Positions 12,077-26,199 of a stretch of 64,000 nt of DNA are shown here, one piece after another (the first letter of the stretch is position 1; the number at the start of each line of letters is the position of its first letter). This stretch comes from Haloactinomyces albus (GTDB lineage Bacteria > Actinomycetota > Actinomycetes > Mycobacteriales > Pseudonocardiaceae). Where the stretch lies: positions 186,001 through 250,000 of the forward strand of contig NZ_JAVDXW010000001.1 of assembly GCF_031458135.1 (NCBI RefSeq), read 5' to 3'. Position numbers and translations under genes: made by a program. Under the pieces are notes generated by a model. It was not told the DNA's origin. It saw nothing but the letters and a program-made list of their open reading frames with translations, and did no database searches.

Positions 12077-12255
12077 TTCGCCGCCGTACCCGACGGAGAC
12101 CCTGCTCAATCGTCGACCGCACCGGGCGCCGCAGCCCGCCGATGCCCGGAGCCGACCGGTCCCTTCGAGTGTTCTCGATGCTCGTCCTGTTTGACCGGCG
12201 CATTCTCCTGGGCAATCCCGAAGCAACCAATGTGCGGCTGGGAAAGGCTGACCGA

Positions 12256-12786
12256 ATGGATACCCGGATCGACCTGCGGGTGGACGGTGAGCAGCGCTCG
12301 CTCACCGTCGACACGCGCACGACACTGCTGGATGCCCTGCGCGAACGGCTGGGAGTGACCTCCCCGAAGAAGGGGTGCGATCACGGGCAGTGCGGTTCGT
12401 GCACGGTCCTGCTCGATGGACGACGCGCCACCACGTGCCTGGCCCTGGCCGTGGCCCACACCGGCTCGGAGATCACCACAGCGGCCGGTTTGTCCGACGG
12501 CGACGACCTGCATCCCGTGGCACGGGCGTTCCTCGACCACGACGGCCTGCAGTGCGGGTACTGCACGCCGGGCCAGATCTGCTCGGCGGTGGGCATGCTC
12601 GACGAAGCCAAGGCCGGATGGCCGAGCCTGGTCACCGAACATGCCGAGGACAGTGCCGCACTCGACGAGTCGGAACTCGACGACGAGGAGATCCGCGAAC
12701 GCATGAGCGGGAACCTGTGCCGCTGCGGGGCCTACACGAACATCGTCACGGCCATCCGCGAAGCATCGAACGGAGGGAACCGATGA
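12256..12786 (+). CDS. Molybdenum hydroxylase, 2Fe-2S subunit
   Basis: 176 residues with two [2Fe-2S] domains. The N-terminal plant-ferredoxin-type cluster is in KKGCDHGQCGSCTVLLDGRRATTCL. The C-terminal alpha-helical cluster has CGYCTPGQICS and SGNLCRCGAYTNIV. It shuttles electrons from Moco to FAD. The ATG at 12256 has GGAAAGG eight bases upstream; the longer open frame from 12142 has no family support. The stop overlaps the next start (ATGA). The layout resembles E. coli PaoA/YagT, but no Tat signal is seen, so the complex is probably cytosolic. Confidence 0.93.
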   Translation: MDTRIDLRVDGEQRSLTVDTRTTLLDALRERLGVTSPKKGCDHGQCGSCTVLLDGRRATTCLALAVAHTGSEITTAAGLSDGDDLHPVARAFLDHDGLQCGYCTPGQICSAVGMLDEAKAGWPSLVTEHAEDSAALDESELDDEEIRERMSGNLCRCGAYTNIVTAIREASNGGNR

Positions 12787-13775
12787 TTCCCTTCGACTAC
12801 CAGCGGGCCGACCACGCCGAGGGAGCCGTGGCCGCCGTGGGGGACCGTTCCGGAGCGACCTTCCTCGGTGGCGGCACCAACCTCGTCGATCATCTCAAAC
12901 TCGGCATCACCGAGCCCGAACTCCTCATCGACATCACCCGACTGCCCTTCGATGCCATCGACCCGCTGCCCGACGGCGGAGTGCGGATCGGCGCGACCGT
13001 GCGCAACAGCGATCTCGCGGCCGAGGCGATCATCCGGCAGCGCTATCCGGTGCTGTCCCAGGCGCTGCTGTCGGGGGCTTCCGGGCAGTTGCGCAACCTC
13101 GCCACCACGGGTGGCAACCTGCTGCAGCGCACCCGCTGCCCGTACTTCCAGGACGTCACCACGCCGTGCAACAAGCGCGAGCCCGGATCGGGATGCTCGG
13201 CGCTGAACGGCTATACGCGCAACCACGCCATTCTCGGTGCCTCCGAGCACTGCGTGGCCACCCATCCCTCGGACATGGCGGTCGCTCTGGCCGCACTGGA
13301 CGCGACCGTGCAAGTCACGGGCCCGAACGGGCAACGCGGTATTCCGGTCACCGACCTGCACCGGCTGCCCGGCGACGAGCCGCACCGGGACACGGTGCTC
13401 GAGCACGGCGAATTGATCACCTCGGTGGACCTGCCGGAACTGCCGAGATCCACGCGCTCGCGCTACCGCAAGGTACGAGATCGCGCTTCGTACGCGTTCG
13501 CGCTGGTGTCGGTGGCTGCCGTGCTCGAGATCGAGGGCGACACCGTGCGCGAGGCACGCATCGCACTGGGCGGCGTCGCCCACAAGCCGTGGCGCGCGAG
13601 CACGGCCGAGCAGGCACTGCGCGGCGCACCGACGACCGAAGAGTCCTTCCGCTCGGCAGCCGAAGCGGAAATCGCCCAGGCACAGCCACTGGCCGACAAC
13701 GAATTCAAACTGCCCATGGCCCGCAACACGCTCACGGCCACGCTACGGGACCTTGCCGGGAAGGAATCGCGATGA
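12783..13775 (+). CDS. Molybdenum hydroxylase, FAD subunit with extra Fe-S motif
   Basis: A 330-residue xanthine-dehydrogenase FAD-binding subunit: FLGGGTNLVDHLKLG and ASGQLRNLATTGGNLLQRTRCPY are the FAD motifs. An insertion following them holds Cys residues in RTRCPYFQ, TPCNKREPGSGCSAL and SEHCVATHPSDMA. This matches PaoB/YagS-type subunits, which bind an additional [4Fe-4S] cluster. The gene overlaps both neighbours by ATGA. Confidence 0.92.
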   Translation: MIPFDYQRADHAEGAVAAVGDRSGATFLGGGTNLVDHLKLGITEPELLIDITRLPFDAIDPLPDGGVRIGATVRNSDLAAEAIIRQRYPVLSQALLSGASGQLRNLATTGGNLLQRTRCPYFQDVTTPCNKREPGSGCSALNGYTRNHAILGASEHCVATHPSDMAVALAALDATVQVTGPNGQRGIPVTDLHRLPGDEPHRDTVLEHGELITSVDLPELPRSTRSRYRKVRDRASYAFALVSVAAVLEIEGDTVREARIALGGVAHKPWRASTAEQALRGAPTTEESFRSAAEAEIAQAQPLADNEFKLPMARNTLTATLRDLAGKESR

Positions 13776-15883
13776 CCACCGCGGAAGAGGCTCTGCTCCG
13801 GCCGAATGCGATCGGCACACCGCTGGTTCGCCTCGAGGGCTCGGACAAAGTCACCGGCACGGCGCCGTATGCCGTCGAGCACCCGGTCGACAACCCCACC
13901 CACTTCCATCCCCTGCAGTCCAGGATCGCGGTCGGGCGCGTGCACAGCATCGATACGAGCGCCGCGCACGCCGAGCCGGGAGTGCTCGCGATACTCACCC
14001 CCGACAACGCCCCGCGGCTGGCCTCGACGGGCAACGGTGAACTGGAGATCCTGCAATCCGACGAGATCGCCTACCGCGGCCAGTTCCTCGGCGGCGTGAT
14101 CGCCGAAACACCCGAGATCGCCCGCCATGCCGCGAGTCTGATTCGGCTGGAATACGAGCAACGCAGCCATGACGTGAAGCTGCGTGCCGACCGAGGCGAC
14201 CTCTACAAGCCGGAGCAGGTCAATCCGACCTTCGAAACCGACACCGCGCAGGGCGATGTCGATGGAGCGCTGGCTTCGGCGGCGGTGACGCTGGATGCGA
14301 CCTACTCCACGCCGATGGAGCACAACAATCCGATGGAGCCGCACGCCACCATCGCCTGCTGGACCGACGATGGTGAACTCACCCTCTACGACTCCACACA
14401 AGGTGTGTACTGGACACAAGGGACCGTGGCACCGTTGTTCGGGCTCGAGCAGCAGCAGGTGCACGTGATCTCGCCGCATGTCGGAGGCGGTTTCGGGTCC
14501 AAGGGAATACCGCACCCGAACGTGGTGCTGGCCGCGATGGCCGCCCGGCTCGTACCGGGACGGCCGGTGAAATTCCCGCTGACCCGACAGCAGATGTTCT
14601 CCGTGGTCGGCTACCGCACACCGACGATCCAGCACGTGCGGCTCGGTGCCGACGAGCAGGGCAGGCTCTCCGCGATCGCGCAGGACGTCGTCGAGCAGTC
14701 CTCGAAGGTCAAGGAGTTCGCCGAGCAGACGGCTGTTCCGGCCCGCACGATGTATGCCGCGCCCCATCGCCGGACCTCGCATCGGCTCGCGGCGCTGGAC
14801 GTGCCGGTGCCCTCGTGGATGCGTGCTCCCGGTGAATGCCCGGGCATGTTCGGTCCCGAGGTGGCCATGGACGAAATGGCCCTGGCGTGTGGTCTGGACC
14901 CGATCGAGTTCCGAGTACGCAACGAGCCGGAGACCGATCCGGAGTCCGGCCTGCCGTTTTCCAGCCGCAATCTGGTGGCCTGCCTGCACGAGGGCGCCCG
15001 CCGATTCGGATGGCACGACCGCGATCCCGATCCGGGCGTCCGGCGGCGCGGCGACTGGCTGGTCGGTACCGGCGTGGCCGCCTCCACCTACCCCGTCTTC
15101 GCGATGCCGGGTTCGCAGGCCACCATCCGGACCACTCCCGAGGGGCGCTACACCGTGCTGATCGGTGCGTCCGACATCGGTACCGGGACCTGGACGACAC
15201 TGACCCAGATCGCCGCCGATGCGCTGGAGGTCCCCGTCTCCGAGGTCGACCTGGAGATCGGAAGCACCACACTGCCCACCGCCTCGGGGGCGGGGGGCTC
15301 CTCCGGCATCAACTCGTGGGGTTCGACGATCGTCGATGCGGCCCGCAGGCTGCGTACCCGGCTGGACGAGCACGGTGGCACCGTCCCCTCGGAAGGAATC
15401 GAGGTCACCGGGGAGATACCCGAAAACCCCTACACCAGCCAATACGCGATGTACAGTTTCGGTGCCCAGTTCGCCGAGGCGTGGGTCAACACCGACACCG
15501 GAGAGGTCTCGGTCCCCCGGCTGCTGGGTATCTTCGCCGCGGGCCGGATCATCAACGCCCGGACCGGTCGGTCACAACTGCTCGGCGGAATGACCATGGG
15601 ACTGTCCATGGCCCTGCACGAGGAAAGCGTGCTCGATCCCCAGTTCGGGCACGTGGTCAATCACGACCTCGCCGAGTACCATATCGCCACCAACGCCGAT
15701 ATCGGCTCCATCGAGGTGGATTGGCTGGACGAGCACGATCCGTACGTCAATCCCATGGGTGCCAAGGGCATCGGGGAACTCGGGATCACCGGTACCGCGG
15801 CGGCCGTCACCAACGCCGCCCACCACGCCACCGGCATCCGTGTCCGCGATCTCCCCTTGAGCCCCGACAAGTTCCTCCGGTGA
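13772..15883 (+). CDS. Molybdenum hydroxylase, molybdopterin-binding catalytic subunit
   Basis: 703 residues, the PaoC/YagR size. It contains VRLEGSDKVTGTAPYAVEH at the N-terminus, the Moco motifs HVGGGFGSKG and RAPGECPGMFGPEVAMDE, and GASDIGTGTWTTLTQ. The catalytic Glu is in MGAKGIGELGITG near the C-terminus. The family oxidises aldehydes or N-heterocycles, and the substrate is open. No XdhC/MocA-type maturation gene adjoins it. Confidence 0.93.
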   Translation: MTTAEEALLRPNAIGTPLVRLEGSDKVTGTAPYAVEHPVDNPTHFHPLQSRIAVGRVHSIDTSAAHAEPGVLAILTPDNAPRLASTGNGELEILQSDEIAYRGQFLGGVIAETPEIARHAASLIRLEYEQRSHDVKLRADRGDLYKPEQVNPTFETDTAQGDVDGALASAAVTLDATYSTPMEHNNPMEPHATIACWTDDGELTLYDSTQGVYWTQGTVAPLFGLEQQQVHVISPHVGGGFGSKGIPHPNVVLAAMAARLVPGRPVKFPLTRQQMFSVVGYRTPTIQHVRLGADEQGRLSAIAQDVVEQSSKVKEFAEQTAVPARTMYAAPHRRTSHRLAALDVPVPSWMRAPGECPGMFGPEVAMDEMALACGLDPIEFRVRNEPETDPESGLPFSSRNLVACLHEGARRFGWHDRDPDPGVRRRGDWLVGTGVAASTYPVFAMPGSQATIRTTPEGRYTVLIGASDIGTGTWTTLTQIAADALEVPVSEVDLEIGSTTLPTASGAGGSSGINSWGSTIVDAARRLRTRLDEHGGTVPSEGIEVTGEIPENPYTSQYAMYSFGAQFAEAWVNTDTGEVSVPRLLGIFAAGRIINARTGRSQLLGGMTMGLSMALHEESVLDPQFGHVVNHDLAEYHIATNADIGSIEVDWLDEHDPYVNPMGAKGIGELGITGTAAAVTNAAHHATGIRVRDLPLSPDKFLR

Positions 15884-16821: not shown

Positions 16822-17124
16822 TCAGGCCGACAGGCTCAATCCGCCGGTTTTGCCGGTGCGGAGCAGGTGTCGCCGCTCGTCCTCGGTCAATCCGCCCCAT
16901 ACGCCATAGGGCTCTTCGACATTCAACGCGTGCTCCAGGCATGCCTGTGCCACCGGACACCGCGCGCATACCTGTTTGGCCTGAGACTCACGCGCCTGAC
17001 GGGCACCGCCGCGTTCGTTCTCCGGGTGGAAGAAGACCTCACTTCCCATCCTCCGGCAGGCGGCATCCCGTTGCCAGTCGTAATTATTCGCATGCGGAAC
17101 CGGAAGTCGAGTCGTCGTCGTCAC
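16822..17124 (-). CDS. WhiB-family redox-sensing regulator (WhiB3/WhiD-like)
   Basis: 100 residues. The four [4Fe-4S] cysteines are visible in WQRDAACRR, QVCARCPVAQACLEHA, followed by the GVWGGL turn and a basic tail. FFHPENERG and EEPYGVWGGLTEDERRHLL are closest in my recollection to the WhiB3/WhiD group. I choose the GTG at 17124, which has AGGAGA just upstream; an upstream ATG at 17241 would add 39 unrelated residues. Such proteins bind the sigma factor and respond to NO and O2. Confidence 0.88.
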   Translation of the reverse strand: MTTTTRLPVPHANNYDWQRDAACRRMGSEVFFHPENERGGARQARESQAKQVCARCPVAQACLEHALNVEEPYGVWGGLTEDERRHLLRTGKTGGLSLSA

Positions 17125-17346
17125 CGCTCTCCTCACTACCCCGCGCTCCGTGTACGCCGGTGTGCGCAGAAACCGCCAACCGGCATACGTGGCGCTGTCG
17201 AATATCAATACTCGATGGTTCCCCGTCGAACCTCCCTTCACTTTCCCGGCACCGCGTGGGCTCTAAACATGGTTCAGCGGACAGGAGCTCCCGATTTGCG
17301 GGAGAACTGCGAAACCACCACAGGAACAGGCCGACCGGGCACACGC

Positions 17347-18765
17347 TCAGGGCAGCAGCGACCCTGTGAGCAGGGGAAGAACGATCCCGCCTGCGAGACC
17401 GAGAGCCAGGGAGGCGGCTCCGGCGGTGTAGGCACCCACCGCCGACCAGCGTCCTGCAGGCACGAGGGTGTCGCTTGCCGTCTCGGGGACCGCGACGAGG
17501 GCGGGGGCGATCCAGCGCAGGTAGTAGAAGAGACTGGCCACGGTGTTGGCGACGGCGACGACGGCCAGCCAGGTGTAGCCGCCGTCGATGGCGGCGCTGA
17601 ACACCTCCAGTTTTCCGAGGAACACCCCGGTGGGGGGTGTGCCCACCAGTCCGAGCAGACACACGACCAGGACCGCGGCAAGTCCCGGATGCCTGCGGGC
17701 GAGGCCGCGGTAATCGACCAGCCGGGGTGCGTGCGGCAGCTCGGCAACGACGGCGAAGGCACCGAGGTTGGTCACCGCGTAGGCGGCGAGATAGAACAGC
17801 AGGGCCGGTAGCGCGATCTCGCTGCGAGTCGCGACGGCGACGGCCAGCAGGATGTAGCCGACCTGACCGATGGTCGAGTAGGCCAGCAGGCGACGAACGG
17901 TGTCCTGGAAGAACGCCGCGAGATTGCCCAGGGTCATCGACGCGACGGCCAGGACGGCCACGAGCAGCGACCAGTTCACGCCGACCGTGGGCAGCGCTTC
18001 GGCCACCAACCGGTAAACGGCGATCAGCCCCCCGATTTTGGGCACGGTGGTGACGAACGCGGCCACCGGCGTGCTCGCCCCTTCGGTCACATCGGGCACC
18101 CAGAAGTGAGCGGGCACCGCGCCGATTTTGAACAGCAGCCCGGCGAGTACGGCCACGATCCCGACGGCGACCGCTGCCCGTGGGGCGGCGGGCAGGTTCT
18201 GGGCCAGCGTCGCGTAGCCGGTGGATCGACCGGTTCCGTAGAGGATGGTGATGCCGGTGAGCATGGTGACGCCGAGCAGAGCCCCCATGAGGTAGTACTT
18301 CAGGGATGCCTCGGTTCCCGGTGCGTCCTTGACGAATCCGGCCAAGGCATACAGCGGTACCGACGCCAGCAGGTAGCCGGCGACCAGCAGCAGCAGGTCG
18401 GCCGCGCCGGTGAGCGTGATCGTGCCGAGTGCCGCGAGCTGCATCAGGACGTAGAACTCGGTTTCCCGCTGGTGGGACTCGACCGTCTCGATGGACAAGC
18501 AGATCGTCAGCAAGGTGGCGGCGAGCACGATGATCCGGCCGGCGTTGGTGGCGACGTCCACGGCATAGCTGCCACCGAAGACCATCCGCGGCCCGTTGCC
18601 CATCGCCACGGCGGTGGCGGCCAGGCCCGCCAGGCAGGCCAGCGCGGCCAGCAGCCGCACCAGCCACTGCCGGTGCCGGGGAAGCCAGGCTCCGAGCAGC
18701 AGTCCGAGTACGGCCCCGGCCACGAGTGTCAGTTCGGGGATCAGGGCAGCAGGATGCATGTTCAT
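17347..18765 (-). CDS. nuoN: NADH-quinone oxidoreductase subunit N-like antiporter protein
   Basis: A 472-residue polytopic membrane protein, last gene of the eight-gene complex-I-like operon. The proton-channel core is visible: LLFKIGAVPAHFWVPDVTEGASTPVAAFVTTVPKIGG, with conserved Lys in TM7 and acidic residues, and LLAYSTIGQVGYILL. It is one of three Mrp-like subunits (L, M, N). It starts 3 bp behind nuoM. Real complex I activity is doubtful because the operon lacks electron-input subunits. Confidence 0.88.
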   Translation of the reverse strand: MNMHPAALIPELTLVAGAVLGLLLGAWLPRHRQWLVRLLAALACLAGLAATAVAMGNGPRMVFGGSYAVDVATNAGRIIVLAATLLTICLSIETVESHQRETEFYVLMQLAALGTITLTGAADLLLLVAGYLLASVPLYALAGFVKDAPGTEASLKYYLMGALLGVTMLTGITILYGTGRSTGYATLAQNLPAAPRAAVAVGIVAVLAGLLFKIGAVPAHFWVPDVTEGASTPVAAFVTTVPKIGGLIAVYRLVAEALPTVGVNWSLLVAVLAVASMTLGNLAAFFQDTVRRLLAYSTIGQVGYILLAVAVATRSEIALPALLFYLAAYAVTNLGAFAVVAELPHAPRLVDYRGLARRHPGLAAVLVVCLLGLVGTPPTGVFLGKLEVFSAAIDGGYTWLAVVAVANTVASLFYYLRWIAPALVAVPETASDTLVPAGRWSAVGAYTAGAASLALGLAGGIVLPLLTGSLLP

Positions 18766-18767
18766 GA

Positions 18768-20273
18768 TCAGCGAGCAACCATCTCGATCAGTGTCGTCGA
18801 GGCCGGTTCGATCACGTTCAGCAGGAAACGCGGCAGCACGCCGATCACGACGGCGATCGCGAGCAGCGGCATGATCGAGGCGGCCTCACTCGGCCTCAGG
18901 TCGGTGAAGTCGCGGGCGGCGCCGGGTGCGTCGGGGATCCGCAGTGGACCGAGGAAAACCCGGTGCAGTGCCCGCAACAGCAGGCCTGCGGTGATCAGGA
19001 TGCCCAGCAGCGCCAGCGCGGTGGCCACGGTTGCCGAGGACAGGCTGCCGGTGAAGATCTGGAACTCGGCGATGAACCCGGAAAAACCGGGCAATCCGAG
19101 CGAGGCGAACACGGCCACCGCGGTCACTCCGGCGAAGACCGGTGCGGGCCCGGCCAGGCCGGAGTAGGTGCTCATGTCGTAGCTGCGCCTGCGGTCGTGC
19201 AGGACCCCGGCGAGCAGGAACAGCGCCCCGGTGAGCAGCCCGTGGCTGACCATTTGGGTGACCGCGCCGGTGATGGCCAGCGAACGGGCCTGCTCGTCGC
19301 TGCCTGCCACGATGCCCGCCGCTCCGACCGCCAGGATGATGTAGCCCATGTGGTTGACCGAGGTGTAGGCGATCATGCGCTTGAAGTCCTCCTGGGCCAG
19401 CGCCACCAGTGCGCCGTAGAGCACCGAGACCACCCCGATGATCACGACCACTCCGGCGTACTGGCGCCAAGTGGCAGGCAGCAGCGGCATCGCGATGCGC
19501 ACGAAGCCGTAGGTGCCCATCTTCAGCAGGACCCCGGCCAGGATCGCCGAGCCCGCAGCGGGGGCGTCGGTGTGCGCGGGCGGCAGCCAGGTGTGAAACG
19601 GCACGGTCGGAGTCTTGACCGCGAGTCCGATGCCGACGGCCAGCAGCACCAGGGCTCCGTAGGTGCCGCTGCCCGCCAGTGGATTGGCCCGGCTGAGCGC
19701 GACGATGTCGAAGGTGTGCGGCTCGGCGGCCAGGTACAGCCCGATGAAGCCCAGCAGCAGTGCCAGCGACCCGATGAAGGTGTACAGGAAGAACTTCAGC
19801 GCAGACTGCCTGGCCTGCCCATGGCCCCAGCGGGCGATGACGAAGTACATGCCCACGATGGACAGATCGAAGTAGACGAAGAACAGGATCAGATCCAGCG
19901 CGGTGAACAACCCCAGGCTCACCGTCTGCAGGAACAAAAACAGCAGCACGAAGCTCTTGACCCGGTGGGGCTGGCGCAGCGAGTGGATCGCACACGCCAG
20001 GAACAGTCCCGAGGTGACCGCCACCATCGGCAGTGACAGGCCGTCGAGGCCCACGTGATAACTCGCCCCCGCGCTCGGGATCCAGCGCAGTTGCTGCTCG
20101 TAGGCCATCCCGCCGCCTGCGTCGTAACCGAGCCAGGCGGCCACGACCAGGGCGAGATCGGCCGCGGCCACGGCCACCCAACTTCCCGTGAACATCCGCC
20201 CGCCCACGGAGGCGGGTACCACGGCGAGCACCACAGCCGCCGCCAGCGGCAGGAACACGATCAACGACAGCAC
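18768..20273 (-). CDS. nuoM: NADH-quinone oxidoreductase subunit M-like antiporter protein
   Basis: 501 residues and about 14 membrane helices. Signatures are DGLSLPMVAVTSGLFLACA, FFVYFDLSIVGMYFVIARWG, TPTVPFHTWLPPAHTDAPAAGSAILAGVLLKMGTYG and FKRMIAYTSVNHMGYIILA. It would translocate one proton per cycle in a complete complex. The gene is packed between nuoL and nuoN with 2-3 bp gaps. Confidence 0.92.
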   Translation of the reverse strand: MLSLIVFLPLAAAVVLAVVPASVGGRMFTGSWVAVAAADLALVVAAWLGYDAGGGMAYEQQLRWIPSAGASYHVGLDGLSLPMVAVTSGLFLACAIHSLRQPHRVKSFVLLFLFLQTVSLGLFTALDLILFFVYFDLSIVGMYFVIARWGHGQARQSALKFFLYTFIGSLALLLGFIGLYLAAEPHTFDIVALSRANPLAGSGTYGALVLLAVGIGLAVKTPTVPFHTWLPPAHTDAPAAGSAILAGVLLKMGTYGFVRIAMPLLPATWRQYAGVVVIIGVVSVLYGALVALAQEDFKRMIAYTSVNHMGYIILAVGAAGIVAGSDEQARSLAITGAVTQMVSHGLLTGALFLLAGVLHDRRRSYDMSTYSGLAGPAPVFAGVTAVAVFASLGLPGFSGFIAEFQIFTGSLSSATVATALALLGILITAGLLLRALHRVFLGPLRIPDAPGAARDFTDLRPSEAASIMPLLAIAVVIGVLPRFLLNVIEPASTTLIEMVAR

Positions 20274-20276
20274 GGG

Positions 20277-22148
20277 CTACCTCACGAAGACGAGGAACAG
20301 GGCAAGCACGGCGAGTCCCGCCGCGACCTGGGCGTAGTACTGGTGCACCTGGCCGGTCTGCGGGCGGCGCGCGAATGCCCCGAGCCGCCGGGCGCCCGTG
20401 GACACAGCACGCACCACCCCGTCGACGCCGAACTCGGCACCGCGGTCGACCAGGCGCGCCAGCCACCGTCCCGCATTCGGCACGGCCATGACGGTCCGAT
20501 CCAGCACCCGGTCGTCGAAGACAGCCAGCCCACGAGCCAGCACCATCGTCGGCCGCACCACGAGCAGTTCGGCAACTCGTTCGGTTCGCAGCCACTCCCG
20601 CAGCAATCGGCTCACCGGAGCCGGTATCGGCAGCGACCGGCTACCCCACCACCAGGCAACGGACGCGGCGGCGAGGGCCAGCAGCGCGGAAAGCACGAGT
20701 TCCCACGCCTCCGGTGCAGCTGCACCTTCCGCACCGACGAGCGACTGCACGGCGTGCGCCACCGGCGGAAGGCCCAGCAGCCCGAGCAGGGCCGCACATC
20801 CGGCCAGCACCACCAGCACGGGCCGTGCGAGTGTGGACACTGCGCGAGTACCGGCCTGCTCGGTGTCCCACCCTGCTGCCGCGTCCTCCGGCTCCGGCTG
20901 CCAGACGGACCAGGCCGCCTTGGCGCTGTAGATCGCGGCGACCACCGCAGCGGCGAGCCCCGTGGCGTAGAGGGCTGGACTGCGGTGCAAGGCGGCGGCA
21001 AGTACCTCGTCCTTGGTGACCCACAGCGACAGCGGTGGCAGGCCCGCAAGCGCTGCGGCGGCGACCGTGAACATCATGCCGACCAACCGGTACCGGCGCG
21101 CGGCGCCGCGCAACGCGGGCAGCGCCTTGGTACCCAACGCACTCAGCCAGGCCCCGGCAGCCAGGAACAGGGCCGACTTGGTGGCCGCGTGCGCCACGAG
21201 CTGCATGGTGCCGCCCGCCACGCCACCCACCCCGGCAGCCAGCACCATGAAACCGACCTGGGCGGAGGTGGATGCGGCCAGCAACTGCTTGAGGTCGGTT
21301 TGAGCAACGGCGACCAGGCCGAGCACCAGCGCCGTGGCCACCCCTGTCCAGGCCACCACGGGTCCGCCCCAGCCGGAGGCAGCCAGCAGCGGCCACAGCC
21401 GCAGCAGCAGGTAGGCCCCGGCGGCGACCATCGTCGCCGAGTGCAGCAAGGCCGACACGGGGCTGGGGCCTTCCATCGCGCGCGAGAGCCAGAAGTGAAA
21501 CGGCAACTGGGCCGACTTGCCCAGTGCTGCGACCACGATCCCGGCGGTGACCAGGTGCAGCCATGGACCGGCCGTGTCGGGCAGGTCGACCAGTGCGAGG
21601 GAACCGACCCCGCCTGCCAACGCCGCCCCGGCTGCGAGGTACAGCCCGAGATCGGCCGCGCGGGTGGTCACAAAGGCGACGTTGGCAGCCCGGACGCGAT
21701 GCGGCTCGTGCCACCAGAACCCGATCAGGGCCCAACTCATGGCGCCCATGACCTCCCAGCCCATGAGCAGTGTCGCCAGCCCCGTGGCGGTGACGGTGAC
21801 CAGCATTGCTCCGGAAAACAGCAGCATCAGCCCCGTGAACCGGGCCCGCGACCGGCCGGCGGTGGACTCGCCTGCGGCGAAGAGCAACACCGCCAGGGTG
21901 ACCGCAGCGACCGTGACCACGAGAATCGCCGAGAGCCCGTCGACGGCCAGGCCCGCGTCGATTCCGGCGAACAGCGGTACCGACACGGCAGGGCGCAGCA
22001 CCGCAGCCTGTACGGCCAGTATCAGGGTCGTCACCGTCGCGGCGATTCCCACCGCGGGAGCAGGCCGGTCACCGCGGCGACCGGTGCAGGCCAATACCGC
22101 CCCGGTGCCCAGCGGCACCGCGACCAGCAGCCACACCAGCACATCCAT
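20277..22148 (-). CDS. nuoL: NADH-quinone oxidoreductase subunit L-like antiporter protein
   Basis: 623 residues, the usual NuoL size. It includes GLSAILVVTVAAVTLAVLLF, WEVMGAMSWALIGFWWHE, GKSAQLPFHFWLSRAMEGPSPVSALLHSATMVAAGAYLL and DLKQLLAASTSAQVGFMVLAAG, plus a C-terminal extension consistent with the lateral helix. It lies 4 bp upstream of nuoM in the transcript and 4 bp behind nuoK. Confidence 0.92.
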   Translation of the reverse strand: MDVLVWLLVAVPLGTGAVLACTGRRGDRPAPAVGIAATVTTLILAVQAAVLRPAVSVPLFAGIDAGLAVDGLSAILVVTVAAVTLAVLLFAAGESTAGRSRARFTGLMLLFSGAMLVTVTATGLATLLMGWEVMGAMSWALIGFWWHEPHRVRAANVAFVTTRAADLGLYLAAGAALAGGVGSLALVDLPDTAGPWLHLVTAGIVVAALGKSAQLPFHFWLSRAMEGPSPVSALLHSATMVAAGAYLLLRLWPLLAASGWGGPVVAWTGVATALVLGLVAVAQTDLKQLLAASTSAQVGFMVLAAGVGGVAGGTMQLVAHAATKSALFLAAGAWLSALGTKALPALRGAARRYRLVGMMFTVAAAALAGLPPLSLWVTKDEVLAAALHRSPALYATGLAAAVVAAIYSAKAAWSVWQPEPEDAAAGWDTEQAGTRAVSTLARPVLVVLAGCAALLGLLGLPPVAHAVQSLVGAEGAAAPEAWELVLSALLALAAASVAWWWGSRSLPIPAPVSRLLREWLRTERVAELLVVRPTMVLARGLAVFDDRVLDRTVMAVPNAGRWLARLVDRGAEFGVDGVVRAVSTGARRLGAFARRPQTGQVHQYYAQVAAGLAVLALFLVFVR

Positions 22149-22152
22149 CGGC

Positions 22153-22458
22153 CTACTCCTTGAGGTCGGCGGCCATGTCGGTCATGTCCACGTCCCGGCT
22201 CCGGAAGAGTGCCGTGACCACGGCGAAGCCGACCGCCATCTCCACCGCCATCGCCGTGATCACCACGACGATGAGGACCTGTCCGTCCACAGCGGATGGA
22301 GCGACGTAGTACCAGAACGCGGCCGCAGCGACGATGATGCCGCCCAACATGAGCTCCAGCCCCATCATCAGCATCACGATGGACTGTTGCGACATCGCAC
22401 CGTAGAGCCCGATCGCCACCAGACCGGTGCCGAGCAGCAAAAACAACTCCAGACTCAC
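22153..22458 (-). CDS. nuoK: NADH-quinone oxidoreductase subunit K
   Basis: 101 residues with three membrane helices. The conserved Glu pair region is MLMMGLELMLGGIIVAAAAF and VVITAMAVEMAVGFAVVTALF. The start ATG overlaps the nuoJ stop (ATGA). The acidic residues used for proton transfer in complex I are retained. Confidence 0.92.
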   Translation of the reverse strand: MSLELFLLLGTGLVAIGLYGAMSQQSIVMLMMGLELMLGGIIVAAAAFWYYVAPSAVDGQVLIVVVITAMAVEMAVGFAVVTALFRSRDVDMTDMAADLKE

Positions 22459-23045
22459 CGTGGACCCCGCATTTCCGTCCGCTGTGGACCGACTCCGCCC
22501 GGGACCGGGTCCTCGGGGCGCCGCGCACGCAGATCATCACCGAAACGGTCGTAGCGACCCCGCTGGGTGGACAGCATCACCGTCGCGACGATCGTCGCGA
22601 ACAGCACGAGCCCGAGGGTCATCATCGTCAGCATCTGCGGCCCCATGAGCGCCGTGCCGAGTGCGACCGTGGGCTCGGCCGGAGGACCGCCTGCCCGCTC
22701 GGGCCAGTCGACGAGAAAGATCCCGGCACCGAGCACGACGAACGTACCCACGGAGATCGACATCGCCCCGGCCTTGTTGTGATACATCGCCATCGGCATC
22801 AACCCGGCCGGATTCATCATGTACATGATCATGAACACGGCCATGATGACCATCTCCATGACCATCATGAGCACGATGACCAATCCCAGGTACCCCAGAC
22901 CGAGCAGCAGCACCTCGGCGGCCACGCACAGGAACGAAGCCAGCAGCGCGAACGTCACCTGAGCCATCGAATCCAGCCGGAACACCAGGAAGCCGAAGAC
23001 CACGGCCGCCACCCCGAAGACCCAGAACAGCACGGTGGTCACCAA
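22455..23045 (-). CDS. nuoJ: NADH-quinone oxidoreductase subunit J
   Basis: 196 residues with five membrane helices. It shows ASFLCVAAEVLLLGLGYLGLVIVLMMVMEMVIMAVFMIMYM, where NuoJ usually has the pi-bulge helix, and then a variable C-terminal cytosolic part. The segment is unusually Met-rich (MVMEMVIMAVFMIMYMMNPAGLMPMAMY). It ends in the nuoK start. Confidence 0.85.
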   Translation of the reverse strand: MVTTVLFWVFGVAAVVFGFLVFRLDSMAQVTFALLASFLCVAAEVLLLGLGYLGLVIVLMMVMEMVIMAVFMIMYMMNPAGLMPMAMYHNKAGAMSISVGTFVVLGAGIFLVDWPERAGGPPAEPTVALGTALMGPQMLTMMTLGLVLFATIVATVMLSTQRGRYDRFGDDLRARRPEDPVPGGVGPQRTEMRGPR

Positions 23046-23058
23046 CCGTGATACCTCC

Positions 23059-23988
23059 TCACCAAGCCAGCACGGCCACCGAGACGACCAGGGCCTGCAG
23101 GACGGTCAACGGCACCAGCACCACCCAGGCGAACTCGGCGAACCGCTCCATCCGCACGGTGGGAAACCGGCGGGCCAGCCACACCAGGCCGGCCAGTACC
23201 GCCGCCGTCTTGACCAGCGTCCACAACCACGGCGGCAGCACAGGCCCATGACTTCCACCCAAAAACAGCGGTACCGCCATCGCGGCCGCGACCACGAGCA
23301 GCAACCAGCGTCCACCGAGGAACACCAAGCGGTCCACCCCGGACAGTTCACCAGCCGCACCACCGGCCAGGTCCCGGCCGACCGGCGCGTCGAACGGACC
23401 CCAGAACGCCATCGCCATGGCGCTGAGCAGATACACCACGAAGGCCACCGGCATCCAGACGACGAACCACACCCCGGACTGCGCCTCGACAATGCCGCCC
23501 ACCCGCAGCGTTCCCGCCGCCGTGGCCGCGGTGATCAGTGCGAACATGTGCGGCAGTTCGTAGGCCAGCCCCTGAGCGACGAATCGATAGCCGCCCACCA
23601 GCGACAGCGGCGCGTTCGGCCCCCACCCGGCCGTCCACACCGCCGCCCAGGCCAGGATTTCCATCGCGTTGAACCACACGACCCCGACATCGAGATCGGC
23701 CACAGCAGCCCCGCCCAGTGGCAGGACCAGAGCCGCCAGCAGCGCCGCGACCGGAACGGTCAGCACGCCGACCCGCCACAGCACGCCATCGGCGGTCACG
23801 GTCGTGCGACGCTGGGTCACGAGCAACCGTGCCACTTCGCGCAGTGGAGCCGTGGCCACCTGCGACGGTGCACCCACCGCACCTGCGGCGCGTGCCGCCA
23901 GCACCGCATCGAACGCGATCGTGCCCACGGTGATCACCGCCAGCACCACCGGCAGCACCAGCACCGACCAGAGTGGAGTCTCAGTCAC
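23059..23988 (-). CDS. nuoH: NADH-quinone oxidoreductase subunit H-like protein
   Basis: A 309-residue membrane protein of the NuoH family, seen from GWGPNAPLSLVGGYRFVAQGLAYELPHMFALITAA and FWGPFDAPVGRDLAGGAAGELSGVDRL. The cytosolic loop normally reads PFDLPEAE-E with several acidic residues near the quinone chamber; here it reads PFDAPVGRD, so two Glu appear lost. This fits an operon lacking quinone-reducing Fe-S subunits. It overlaps the upstream NuoB/D-like gene by 8 bp. Confidence 0.85.
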   Translation of the reverse strand: MTETPLWSVLVLPVVLAVITVGTIAFDAVLAARAAGAVGAPSQVATAPLREVARLLVTQRRTTVTADGVLWRVGVLTVPVAALLAALVLPLGGAAVADLDVGVVWFNAMEILAWAAVWTAGWGPNAPLSLVGGYRFVAQGLAYELPHMFALITAATAAGTLRVGGIVEAQSGVWFVVWMPVAFVVYLLSAMAMAFWGPFDAPVGRDLAGGAAGELSGVDRLVFLGGRWLLLVVAAAMAVPLFLGGSHGPVLPPWLWTLVKTAAVLAGLVWLARRFPTVRMERFAEFAWVVLVPLTVLQALVVSVAVLAW

Positions 23989-25219
23989 CGGACACCTCCG
24001 TGACCACCCGGTCCTCCAATGCTGTGACGTCCGGATCGAGACTGGCCACGATCAGCCGCGCCGCGGCAAGCTCGACGCCCTCCAGCAACTCGGGAAGCAC
24101 GGCCAGAACGGACGCCGAGCGCGGGTCCTCATCGAAAGATCCCTGCACCAGCGCTTCCTCGGCAGGCAGTGCAGCGGGGTCGTCGATCGCCGGGAGTGTC
24201 CGCTCGATTTCGGCCAGCCACGCCTGCCAGCGCGCGGTAACGTCCCCACCGGAGTGACTCGCTCGCAGCACAGGCCCTGTGACCCCGGCCTCTTCGGCCC
24301 TCCCGGCGGAGAGCGAACCGAGCCCGTCGGTGAGCCACCGCAGCGTCCGCGCTCGGCGCAGTCGCCGGGCCAGCAGCCGCAGCCGGGGCGTCACCTGGTC
24401 AGCGCGTGCTCCAGCGAGTACCTCGTCGCGCAGCCTTCCGGCGCCGACCGCAGGGTCGGACCAACCAGCCACCCGTAAGAGCTTGGCGAGGCCATCCAGG
24501 TATGCAGCGACGCAGCGCCGGATCCCCTCACCACGAGTTGCCTCCTGCCCGGCCGCAGCACGACGCCAGGGTTCGTTCCAGAAGTCCTCATCGACGCCGT
24601 TCCCTCGGAGAACGTCCACCTGGGCCTCCTGGACGACGTCGCCCTGCAGGGTCAGTTGCACCCGCAGCCCGGCAGGCCAGTCCGGCAACAGCGGCCCCAG
24701 GGGAACGTGCAGCCGATCAAGCTGGAGACCGTCGCGGTCCGGGCCACGACCGGCCATCGACAGCCCGCCGGGCATCTCCATGCCATGACCGTGGTCGTGC
24801 CCGCCCTCGTCACCGTGCCCGCCCTCGTCATCGGGCTCACCGCTGCGGTGATCGTCACCGGGCACGTTGCTGTCCTGCTCCTCGCTGCCGATGACCTCTC
24901 CCGTGTCTCCCCCCTCGGCCAGTCGGCGGCGGGCGTCGTCGAGAACCTCCGAAGCAGCCACCGCGCCGAGACCGTGCACGAACACCCGCGGTTTCGGCAC
25001 CTGCCGCCACAGGCGATCCACCATGGGCGTCAGCCGCGCACCGATGGGGCCGGTGAGGACCAGAATGTCGGCATCGGCCGGACTCACGGCATCCGGCCAG
25101 CCGCGGCGGCGCAGTTCGGCCTCCACTGCGAGGCGTTCCGCGGTGCCACCCGGCACGCAGGCCAGCAGCACGTGCGGACGTCCCGCACCGAAGCGCAACA
25201 GGGAACCGGTCAAGCCCAT
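23981..25219 (-). CDS. Degenerate NuoB/NuoD-like fusion with His/Asp-rich linker
   Basis: A 412-residue protein. Residues 14-90 resemble NuoB (HVLLACVPGG, ADADILVLTGPIGARLTPMVDRLW, VPKPRVFVHGLGAV), but the paired Cys and the GSC Cys that bind cluster N2 are absent: only Cys21 remains. Residues about 110-150 form a linker rich in Asp, Glu, Gly and His (HGDEGGHDHGHGMEM). The C-terminal half (LHVPLGPLLPDWPAGLRVQLTLQGDVVQEAQ onward) resembles the start of a NuoD/hydrogenase large chain, then becomes helical. It sits where nuoB-C-D lie in complex I operons. I start at ATG 25219, which gives a 10-bp overlap with nuoA. The domain reading is by eye. Confidence 0.6.
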   Translation of the reverse strand: MGLTGSLLRFGAGRPHVLLACVPGGTAERLAVEAELRRRGWPDAVSPADADILVLTGPIGARLTPMVDRLWRQVPKPRVFVHGLGAVAASEVLDDARRRLAEGGDTGEVIGSEEQDSNVPGDDHRSGEPDDEGGHGDEGGHDHGHGMEMPGGLSMAGRGPDRDGLQLDRLHVPLGPLLPDWPAGLRVQLTLQGDVVQEAQVDVLRGNGVDEDFWNEPWRRAAAGQEATRGEGIRRCVAAYLDGLAKLLRVAGWSDPAVGAGRLRDEVLAGARADQVTPRLRLLARRLRRARTLRWLTDGLGSLSAGRAEEAGVTGPVLRASHSGGDVTARWQAWLAEIERTLPAIDDPAALPAEEALVQGSFDEDPRSASVLAVLPELLEGVELAAARLIVASLDPDVTALEDRVVTEVSGD

Positions 25220-25605
25220 CGCAACGCCCCCTCGCGCCACGCATAGGCGACACCGGCAAGCAGGATCCCGAGGAACACGAACATCTCGATCACCGCGCTC
25301 GCGCCTTGCGAGGAGACGACCAACGTCCACGGGTACATGAACAGCATCTCCATCTCGAAGGCCAGGTAGACCATCGTCAGCGTGTACCAGCGCACGTGGA
25401 ATCGGGAGAACGCATGCTCGACCGGTTCGTCACCCGACAGGAACGGATCGAGTTCCGAGGTCGTCGGAGCCGCCGCCACCAGCCACGCGAGCCCGTACGC
25501 TCCGATGGCGAGCACCACGCAGACACCGAACAGCGCCAGCGCCGCGGCGAAACCGCTCAACAGGAGTACACCTCCGCACGAATCGCTCCCCGTCGCGCGG
25601 GACAA
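25210..25605 (-). CDS. nuoA: NADH-quinone oxidoreductase subunit A-like protein
   Basis: 131 residues with three membrane helices. The NuoA signature region ELDPFLSGDEPVEHAFSRFHVRWYTLTMVYLAFEMEMLFMYPWTLVV is clear, although the usual ECG of ExxEC is not seen: YECG is replaced by SGDEP. It is the first gene of the complex-I-like operon. The upstream 190 bp hold its promoter and that of the divergent copper protein. Confidence 0.85.
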   Translation of the reverse strand: MSRATGSDSCGGVLLLSGFAAALALFGVCVVLAIGAYGLAWLVAAAPTTSELDPFLSGDEPVEHAFSRFHVRWYTLTMVYLAFEMEMLFMYPWTLVVSSQGASAVIEMFVFLGILLAGVAYAWREGALRWA

Positions 25606-25797
25606 CGGTGTATCCGGCGGATGCGCACAGTCGGCTCCTTCCGTGGCGGCACGGTGTCCTCATCCTGAACCACTAACCGCAGCGGCGCTCGTTCAAACTC
25701 CCGCACCACCGATGGCCACGGTGCGCCTCGCCACACCGAATATCCGGGGCCGCACGTGGGTATTCGAAACGGAGGTCACCGTCCAAAGGAGGAACGC

Positions 25798-26199
25798 ATG
25801 CCCGCCCGAGAAATGATCGATACTCATCCGACTGGTCCCGACCTCGATCGAGACCTGCTTGCCGACGTGGTGCAGTCAGCGGTCCAATGTGCTCAAACCT
25901 GCACCGCCTGCGCCGACGCGTGTCTGAGCGAGCAGCAAGTGGACCGGTTGCGTAAGTGCATTCGCAGCAACCTGGACTGCGCCGATATCTGCGACACCAC
26001 CGCTCGCGTGCTGTCCCGGCACACCAGCTATGACGCCAATATCACCCGCGCACAGCTGCAGTCCTGCATCCAGGCCTGCACCAGTTGCGGCAACGAGTGC
26101 GATCAGCACGCGAGCATGCACGAGCACTGCCGCGTCTGCGCCGAGGAATGTCGACGCTGCGCCGAGTCCTGCCAGTCACTCCTCAGCACAATCAGCTGA
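25798..26199 (+). CDS. Four-helix-bundle copper-storage-type protein (Csp/DUF326)
   Basis: 133 residues with 16 cysteines spaced as CxxC/CxxxC along helices: CAQTCTACADAC, CIRSNLDCADIC, CIQACTSCGNEC, CRVCAEECRRCAESC. This is the pattern of cytosolic copper-storage proteins, which bind many Cu(I) ions inside a helical bundle. There is no signal peptide, so a cytosolic (Csp3-like) role is likely. The ATG follows AAAGGAGGAACGC, a near-ideal ribosome site. It is divergent from nuoA. Confidence 0.85.
   Translation: MPAREMIDTHPTGPDLDRDLLADVVQSAVQCAQTCTACADACLSEQQVDRLRKCIRSNLDCADICDTTARVLSRHTSYDANITRAQLQSCIQACTSCGNECDQHASMHEHCRVCAEECRRCAESCQSLLSTIS

Follow-up and report, generated by a model that had tools for sequence, protein, structure and literature searches.

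It has long been asked how the electron arm of respiratory complex I is coupled to proton channels that lie far from it. The Mrp antiporters have antiporter-like subunits together with K- and J-like subunits and no electron carriers; their Na+ path runs through MrpC and the C-terminal region of MrpA, and the E-channel of complex I coincides with the exit part of this path (PMC7419157). Salinispora and Kocuria have what has been called a 'partial NDH-1 operon', in which seven genes, nuoA, H, J, K, L, M and N, stand together; Penn and Jensen 2012 (PMC3314556) and the paper on Kocuria flava (PMC6002675) interpret it as a Na+/H+ pump for marine adaptation. Here we describe a gene cluster of Haloactinomyces albus, in a stretch of 64,000 nucleotides (the window; contig NZ_JAVDXW010000001.1, positions 186,001 to 250,000), that very probably belongs to the same family as this partial operon. 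As judged from sequence and structure prediction, its products lack electron carriers, retain proton-channel residues and carry an invariant methionine ladder and metal-binding insertions, and the family is associated with copper genes. We propose, with a probability of about 0.6, that the module is a cofactor-free relative of complex I that couples the transport of Cu(I) to protons, most likely for export.

The cluster consists of eight open reading frames on the minus strand (17347-25605) in the order A-[B/D]-H-J-K-L-M-N, overlapping or separated by gaps of a few bases. The products of A, H, J, K, L, M and N all score above their Pfam cut-offs, so a membrane arm of complex I type is complete, with its subunits homologous to those of complex I and in the same order. 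The initial annotation had recognized a complex-I-like operon without nuoC, E, F, G or I, and this description holds: none of these five genes lies near the cluster, and in 34 loci of the family from the same class there is no match to canonical B, C, D, E, F, G or I with the exception of a single weak hit resembling NuoG (25% identity, 48 bits) at locus L068. We found neither intact NuoB cysteines nor a nuoC/D/E/F/G/I set nearby; the only Pfam match to NuoD in the H. albus genome belongs to a complete canonical operon at 2.71 Mb (L035), about 2.5 Mb from the cluster.

The second gene encodes a 412-residue protein that matches NuoD and NuoB in Pfam only below threshold. An AlphaFold2 model built from 33 family sequences (predicted local distance difference test score, pLDDT, 86) recovers both folds, as the initial annotation had supposed when it proposed a fused NuoB/NuoD-like protein and suggested structure prediction and hidden Markov model searches as checks. 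Residues 156-403 match the mycobacterial NuoD 8e9h_D (VIA-align Z 22.3, root-mean-square deviation 2.6 over 233 residues, 21% identity), and residues 1-105 are predicted to have the NuoB fold (pLDDT 89), with the top 20 Foldseek matches all being NuoB/PSST. By hhalign the probability is 95% for NuoB and a weak 53% for NuoD; we therefore base the assignment to NuoD on the matches in fold, together with distant family members that exceed the Pfam cut-off for NuoD. Thus both folds of complex I are present, here as one protein. In the alignment of 33 B/D proteins no Cys, His or Tyr occupies an invariant or nearly invariant position, and where cluster N2 needs four cysteines the NuoB half of the window's protein has a single one, which is not conserved; therefore the N2 cluster and the quinone ligands of NuoD, a His and a Tyr in complex I, are gone, as had been suspected for N2 from the lone Cys. 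The lack of conserved Cys also sets the protein apart from the [NiFe] group 4 hydrogenases and Ehr, which have NiFe-binding or iron-sulfur Cys in their large and small subunits.

Between the two halves runs a linker whose pLDDT is below 50 over most of its length. It is rich in His, Met and acidic residues, with repeats such as MDHGGMDHGG, and at least five His are present in 21 of 35 relatives (maximum 41). Three distant members have a heavy-metal-binding motif, CPMHPE...CGMDLVPRE, before the NuoD-like part and in the same chain as a Pfam NuoD match (Complex1_49kDa); Pfam HMBD was matched in the two of the three that were tested, with E-values of 1e-14 and 3e-11. Proteobacterial members have His-rich NuoJ tails in place of the His-rich linker. 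Locus L030 (G025:C3:121000-140000) has a second, shorter B/D-like gene and an H-like gene, and no other subunits of the module were detected nearby. Some carriers have second NuoD-like loci, which we examined as possible intermediates; three of four had no membrane-arm match to our queries.

We compared functionally important residues in the family with those of E. coli and of 17-18 canonical operons from the same genomes. In NuoL, residues E144, R175, K229 and K399 (E. coli numbering) correspond to E132, R163, K211 and K379 of the window's protein and are present in 54/54 members, as are K234 and K265 of NuoM (K220 and K251 in the window); NuoM Glu144 is mostly Asp across the family. NuoN keeps K247 (K243 in the window, 54/54) and K395 (K385, 53/54), but its Glu133 (residue 132 in the window) is Leu in 50 of 54 members. 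The E-channel acids are kept as well: NuoK E36 and E72 (E35 and E73 in the window) are essentially fixed, and NuoA D79 and E81 are retained as Asp or Glu (E84 and E86 in the window). The initial claim that L, M, N and K keep their charged channel residues is thus right for L, K and most of M but not for NuoN Glu133 or, strictly, NuoM Glu144. A second claim was that the NuoH quinone loop PFDAPVGRD has lost acidic residues. The acids at E. coli positions E216 and E218 are indeed lost; E228 is kept together with R148, an Asp stands at E220, and D206 and E214 are retained in nearly all members.

The most distinctive feature of the family is in NuoJ. Eleven methionines (M27, M60, M61, M65, M68, M72, M76, M77, M85, M87 and M138) and H89 are present in 56/56 members, which come from Actinomycetota, Alpha- and Gammaproteobacteria, and E64 is present in all 48 members examined for it (Actinomycetota). 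None of the 17 canonical NuoJ proteins from the same genomes has any of these residues at these sites, where V, Y, I, L, G or A is found instead; Tyr59 of NuoJ (E. coli numbering), for example, is Met in every family member. The spacing of residues 60-76 would place the methionines on one side of a helix. Met makes up 9.7% of NuoJ residues compared to 2.5% in canonical NuoJ from the same genomes, and 9.1% compared to 5.4% in NuoK, and is slightly raised in NuoA. We rejected a general bias towards Met, because H, L, M and N have less of it than their canonical counterparts in the same genomes. NuoK has M29, M31 and M70 in 56/56 members, and M74 also lies near the E-channel acids E35 and E73 in sequence; similarly, NuoA has H70, M87 and M90, close in sequence to E84 and E86, in 57/57 members, and also a family-specific H64. 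The DNA pattern of the ladder has 0 chance occurrences expected in the window and is highly specific, since a single codon encodes Met. A scan of viral contigs with it gave one match, to a Met-rich repetitive phage-like protein (L149, 936-3083); this protein is not a NuoJ, and its long Met/Lys-rich repeats were matched by composition.

A methionine ladder has a precedent in CusA, which moves Cu(I) along one and is proton-driven (PMC7558416). Given this precedent and the overlap between the E-channel and the Mrp cation path, Met residues around a path of the Mrp type would suit Cu(I). The ladder, the His/Met-rich linker and the HMBD matches are sequence signatures suggesting that the module may bind or transport copper. 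Cu(I) bound to B/D and NuoJ might instead switch proton flow without any metal being transported, the module then being a copper-gated proton channel or the regulator of a pump. The intact channels of L and M and the metal-binding segments of cytosolic type would fit this, but the Met ladder, invariant and unbroken along a single transmembrane helix, exceeds the needs of a sensor, and we consider the idea improbable. A copper redox enzyme, passing electrons from Cu(I) to quinone in a remnant quinone cavity and pumping protons, is more improbable again: NuoH and NuoA are retained, as are NuoH E228 and R148, but B/D has no conserved His, Tyr or Cys, the NuoH loop has lost acids, and the ladder is in NuoJ, distant from the quinone pocket.

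The gene neighborhood also points to copper. Without any prior choice of families, we found CsoR, CopZ, DUF305, DUF326/Csp, multicopper oxidase and CopA flanking the clusters. To assess enrichment, we derived expected numbers from genome-wide family counts and compared them to the genes observed within 7 kb of the 34 class loci: CsoR is near 8 loci (0.36 expected, approximate P = 2e-9), DUF305 near 9 (0.41 expected, P = 1e-10), multicopper oxidase near 7 (0.19 expected, P = 3e-10) and HMA near 6 (0.36 expected, P = 1e-6). The same statistic at the same distance gave 0 for every copper family around 32 canonical nuo operons from the same genomes. Relatives of DUF326, which in the window we take to be a Cys-rich four-helix protein of the copper-binding/Csp type, flank 6 loci. 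On a Curtobacterium plasmid the genes copZ-copA-A-B/D-H-J-K-L-M-N are all on one strand, in Arthrobacter FB24 a multicopper oxidase precedes the cluster on the same strand, and on a Roseivivax plasmid cueR lies 9 bp after nuoN. The neighbors are cueR, CopA and a cupredoxin on an Acuticoccus plasmid and PcoA/B and CopD on a Halomonas plasmid, and loci in other classes have CsoR, CopA or multicopper oxidase neighbors. Within 15 kb no copper neighbors were found in Gordonia p2 or R. pyridinivorans.

The module therefore shares with known copper homeostasis systems an association with copper regulators and exporters, both in the enrichment and in the plasmid operons. The same ladder could serve either direction of transport, and the frequency of multicopper oxidases, cupredoxins and cytochromes among the neighbors might suggest that the module does not detoxify but imports Cu(I), or supplies it to cuproenzymes at the membrane or in the periplasm. 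We regard this as unlikely, since genes for efflux and resistance (CopA, CsoR/CueR, PcoA/B, CopC/D) predominate among the neighbors and the metal-binding linker is probably cytoplasmic. The published interpretation, a Na+ or H+ pump that serves adaptation to the sea or to salt, was made for what is apparently the same operon, and the window's close relative is Halopolyspora. It leaves the Met ladder, HMBD and copper neighbors unexplained, and the module is also on plasmids from soil and clinical bacteria, so we consider that interpretation very improbable. The available parts of the two papers mention neither a B/D protein nor a connection with copper, and a literature search found no report of either, which is not proof that none exists.

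We found strong matches to the fused B/D protein in 27 genomes of a class-level sample of 395 and in 17 of a phylum-level sample of 396, the latter including divergent members in other classes; a scan of contigs with the B/D protein as sole query found two close relatives only. The survey of gene order that the initial annotation had called for showed that A-B/D-H-J-K-L-M-N is identical in the 34 class loci and in nearly all divergent loci (more than 10); with the plasmids, more than 45 loci share it. The same order is present on plasmids of Arthrobacter, Curtobacterium, Mycobacterium, Pseudonocardia, Gordonia, Rhodococcus, Halomonas, Roseivivax and Acuticoccus, so that carriers include several classes of Actinomycetota as well as alpha- and gammaproteobacterial plasmids. 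This recurrence in class loci, divergent loci and plasmids of two phyla excludes a chance arrangement, and we also rejected decay of a pseudogene because order and residues are conserved across phyla. In a NuoM tree the family forms a single clade (support 100/99) apart from canonical NuoM. Plasmids of clinical Mycobacterium avium, M. intracellulare and M. paragordonae carry the module (L099 and L107 among them), annotated as NADH-quinone oxidoreductase. Two copies appear to be broken: on a plasmid of Streptomyces NBC_00080 only A and part of B/D remain, and on Rhodococcus pRB29 A and B/D lie beside recombinases, with no further nuo genes annotated.

Canonical NuoD is present in 32 of 33 carriers, which would allow the module to serve as a spare membrane arm, docking onto the canonical peripheral arm when copper stress sets in and protecting complex I. 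However, the remaining carrier, G431, has no canonical NuoD in a genome that is 100% complete, so the module need not borrow a canonical electron arm, and the operon supplies its own fused B/D. We therefore rejected borrowing of the canonical arm, and a role as a spare arm is the least probable of the alternatives.

Our proposal is that Cu(I) would be gathered, probably on the cytoplasmic side, by the His/Met-rich B/D linker (in other members by a His-rich NuoJ tail or HMBD) and would pass along the NuoJ ladder and the methionines beside the E-channel acids of K and A, with inward proton flow through L, M and N paying for its export. This supposes that the eight subunits assemble as one complex, and we infer that Cu(I) moves through NuoJ coupled to H+. 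An involvement of copper is highly probable. Export is favored by the efflux and resistance neighbors and the likely cytoplasmic side of the B/D cap, and we hold it slightly less firmly than the proposal as a whole. The odds are only a little better than even that the module represents a new class of metal transporter, an electron-free complex I machine run by the proton gradient in which three antiporter modules push Cu(I) through a methionine-lined E-channel. The initial annotation suggested that the module may pump or leak ions with a driving force that is not quinone reduction; the missing electron path and the retained proton channels agree with this, but the copper signature had been overlooked, and it probably points to the opposite flow of energy, with the proton gradient driving metal transport and not metal driving a pump.

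Several observations weigh against this proposal. With Glu133 of NuoN lost, one antiporter channel out of three may be altered or silent. Some members have only a short His-rich linker or none at all, so it is not essential. At least one of the four tested copper families is within 15 kb of 18 of the 34 class loci, leaving about half without, and close to the window's own cluster the DUF326 gene is the only neighbor of copper type. The P values are approximate, as the loci share ancestry, but they are backed by the agreement of plasmid and distant-class loci on copper neighbors.

Compared to complex I, the module lacks NuoC, E, F, G and I, iron-sulfur ligands and NuoH loop acids, and has gained the ladder, including Met for NuoJ Tyr59; the proton-channel Lys and Glu residues are kept. 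Although it resembles Mrp in its antiporter-like and K- and J-like subunits and lack of electron carriers, it has NuoH, NuoA, a NuoB/D cap, three antiporter subunits, and Met in place of polar cation ligands. Its L and J are separate, in contrast to the L+J fusion of MrpA, and MrpB, E, F and G are absent from the operon, while Mrp has no NuoH. With CusA-type HME-RND pumps and CopA P-type ATPases it shares a copper-gene context, and with CusA a Met ladder, but the fold is unrelated and the module is multi-subunit. A relative of complex I that keeps the channels and E-channel acids while a metal ion, probably, replaces its driving reaction sets coupling apart from redox chemistry. If our proposal is correct, the module would stand beside complex I as its metal-coupled counterpart, spread on plasmids across at least two phyla, and a further mechanism of copper resistance, present on plasmids including those of clinical mycobacteria under the database label 'NADH-quinone oxidoreductase'.

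Table 1. Features of the cluster and its flank, in window coordinates.
Feature	Position	Strand	Basis
NuoA-like subunit, 131 aa	25210..25605	-	Pfam Oxidored_q4, E 5e-26
Fused NuoB/NuoD-like protein, 412 aa, predicted cofactor-free	23981..25219	-	AlphaFold2, Foldseek/VIA fold matches, hhalign
NuoB-like half (residues 1-105), without N2 cysteines	24905..25219	-	AlphaFold2, Foldseek
His/Met/acid-rich disordered linker between B/D halves, metal-binding-like	24755..24907	-	low pLDDT, composition
NuoD-like half (residues 156-403), without conserved His/Tyr/Cys	24011..24754	-	VIA-align, invariant positions
NuoH-like subunit, 309 aa	23059..23988	-	Pfam NADHdh, E 1e-43
Degenerate NuoH quinone loop PFDAPVGRD	23371..23397	-	residue comparison
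NuoJ-like subunit, 196 aa, Met-rich	22455..23045	-	Pfam Oxidored_q3 above cut-off
NuoJ Met ladder core (M60 M61 E64 M65 M68 M72 M76 M77)	22815..22868	-	residue conservation
NuoJ M85, M87, H89, after ladder helix	22779..22793	-	56/56 members
NuoJ M27	22965..22967	-	56/56 members, 0/17 canonical
NuoK-like subunit	22153..22458	-	Pfam Oxidored_q2
NuoL-like antiporter subunit, channel residues kept	20277..22148	-	Pfam Proton_antipo_M
NuoM-like antiporter subunit, channel residues kept	18768..20273	-	TIGR01972 above cut-off
NuoN-like antiporter subunit, Glu133 to Leu	17347..18765	-	TIGR01770 at cut-off
Divergent DUF326 protein	25756..26199	+	PF03860, E 7e-12

A gene for a WhiB-family regulator (16822-17241; PF02467, E 4e-26) closely follows nuoN, also on the minus strand, and a WhiB-family regulator likewise adjoins the cluster in Halopolyspora (L023), the close relative. 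Also near the cluster, on the plus strand (12142-15883), are three open reading frames that resemble the small iron-sulfur, medium FAD and large molybdenum subunits of enzymes of the xanthine dehydrogenase/CO dehydrogenase type.

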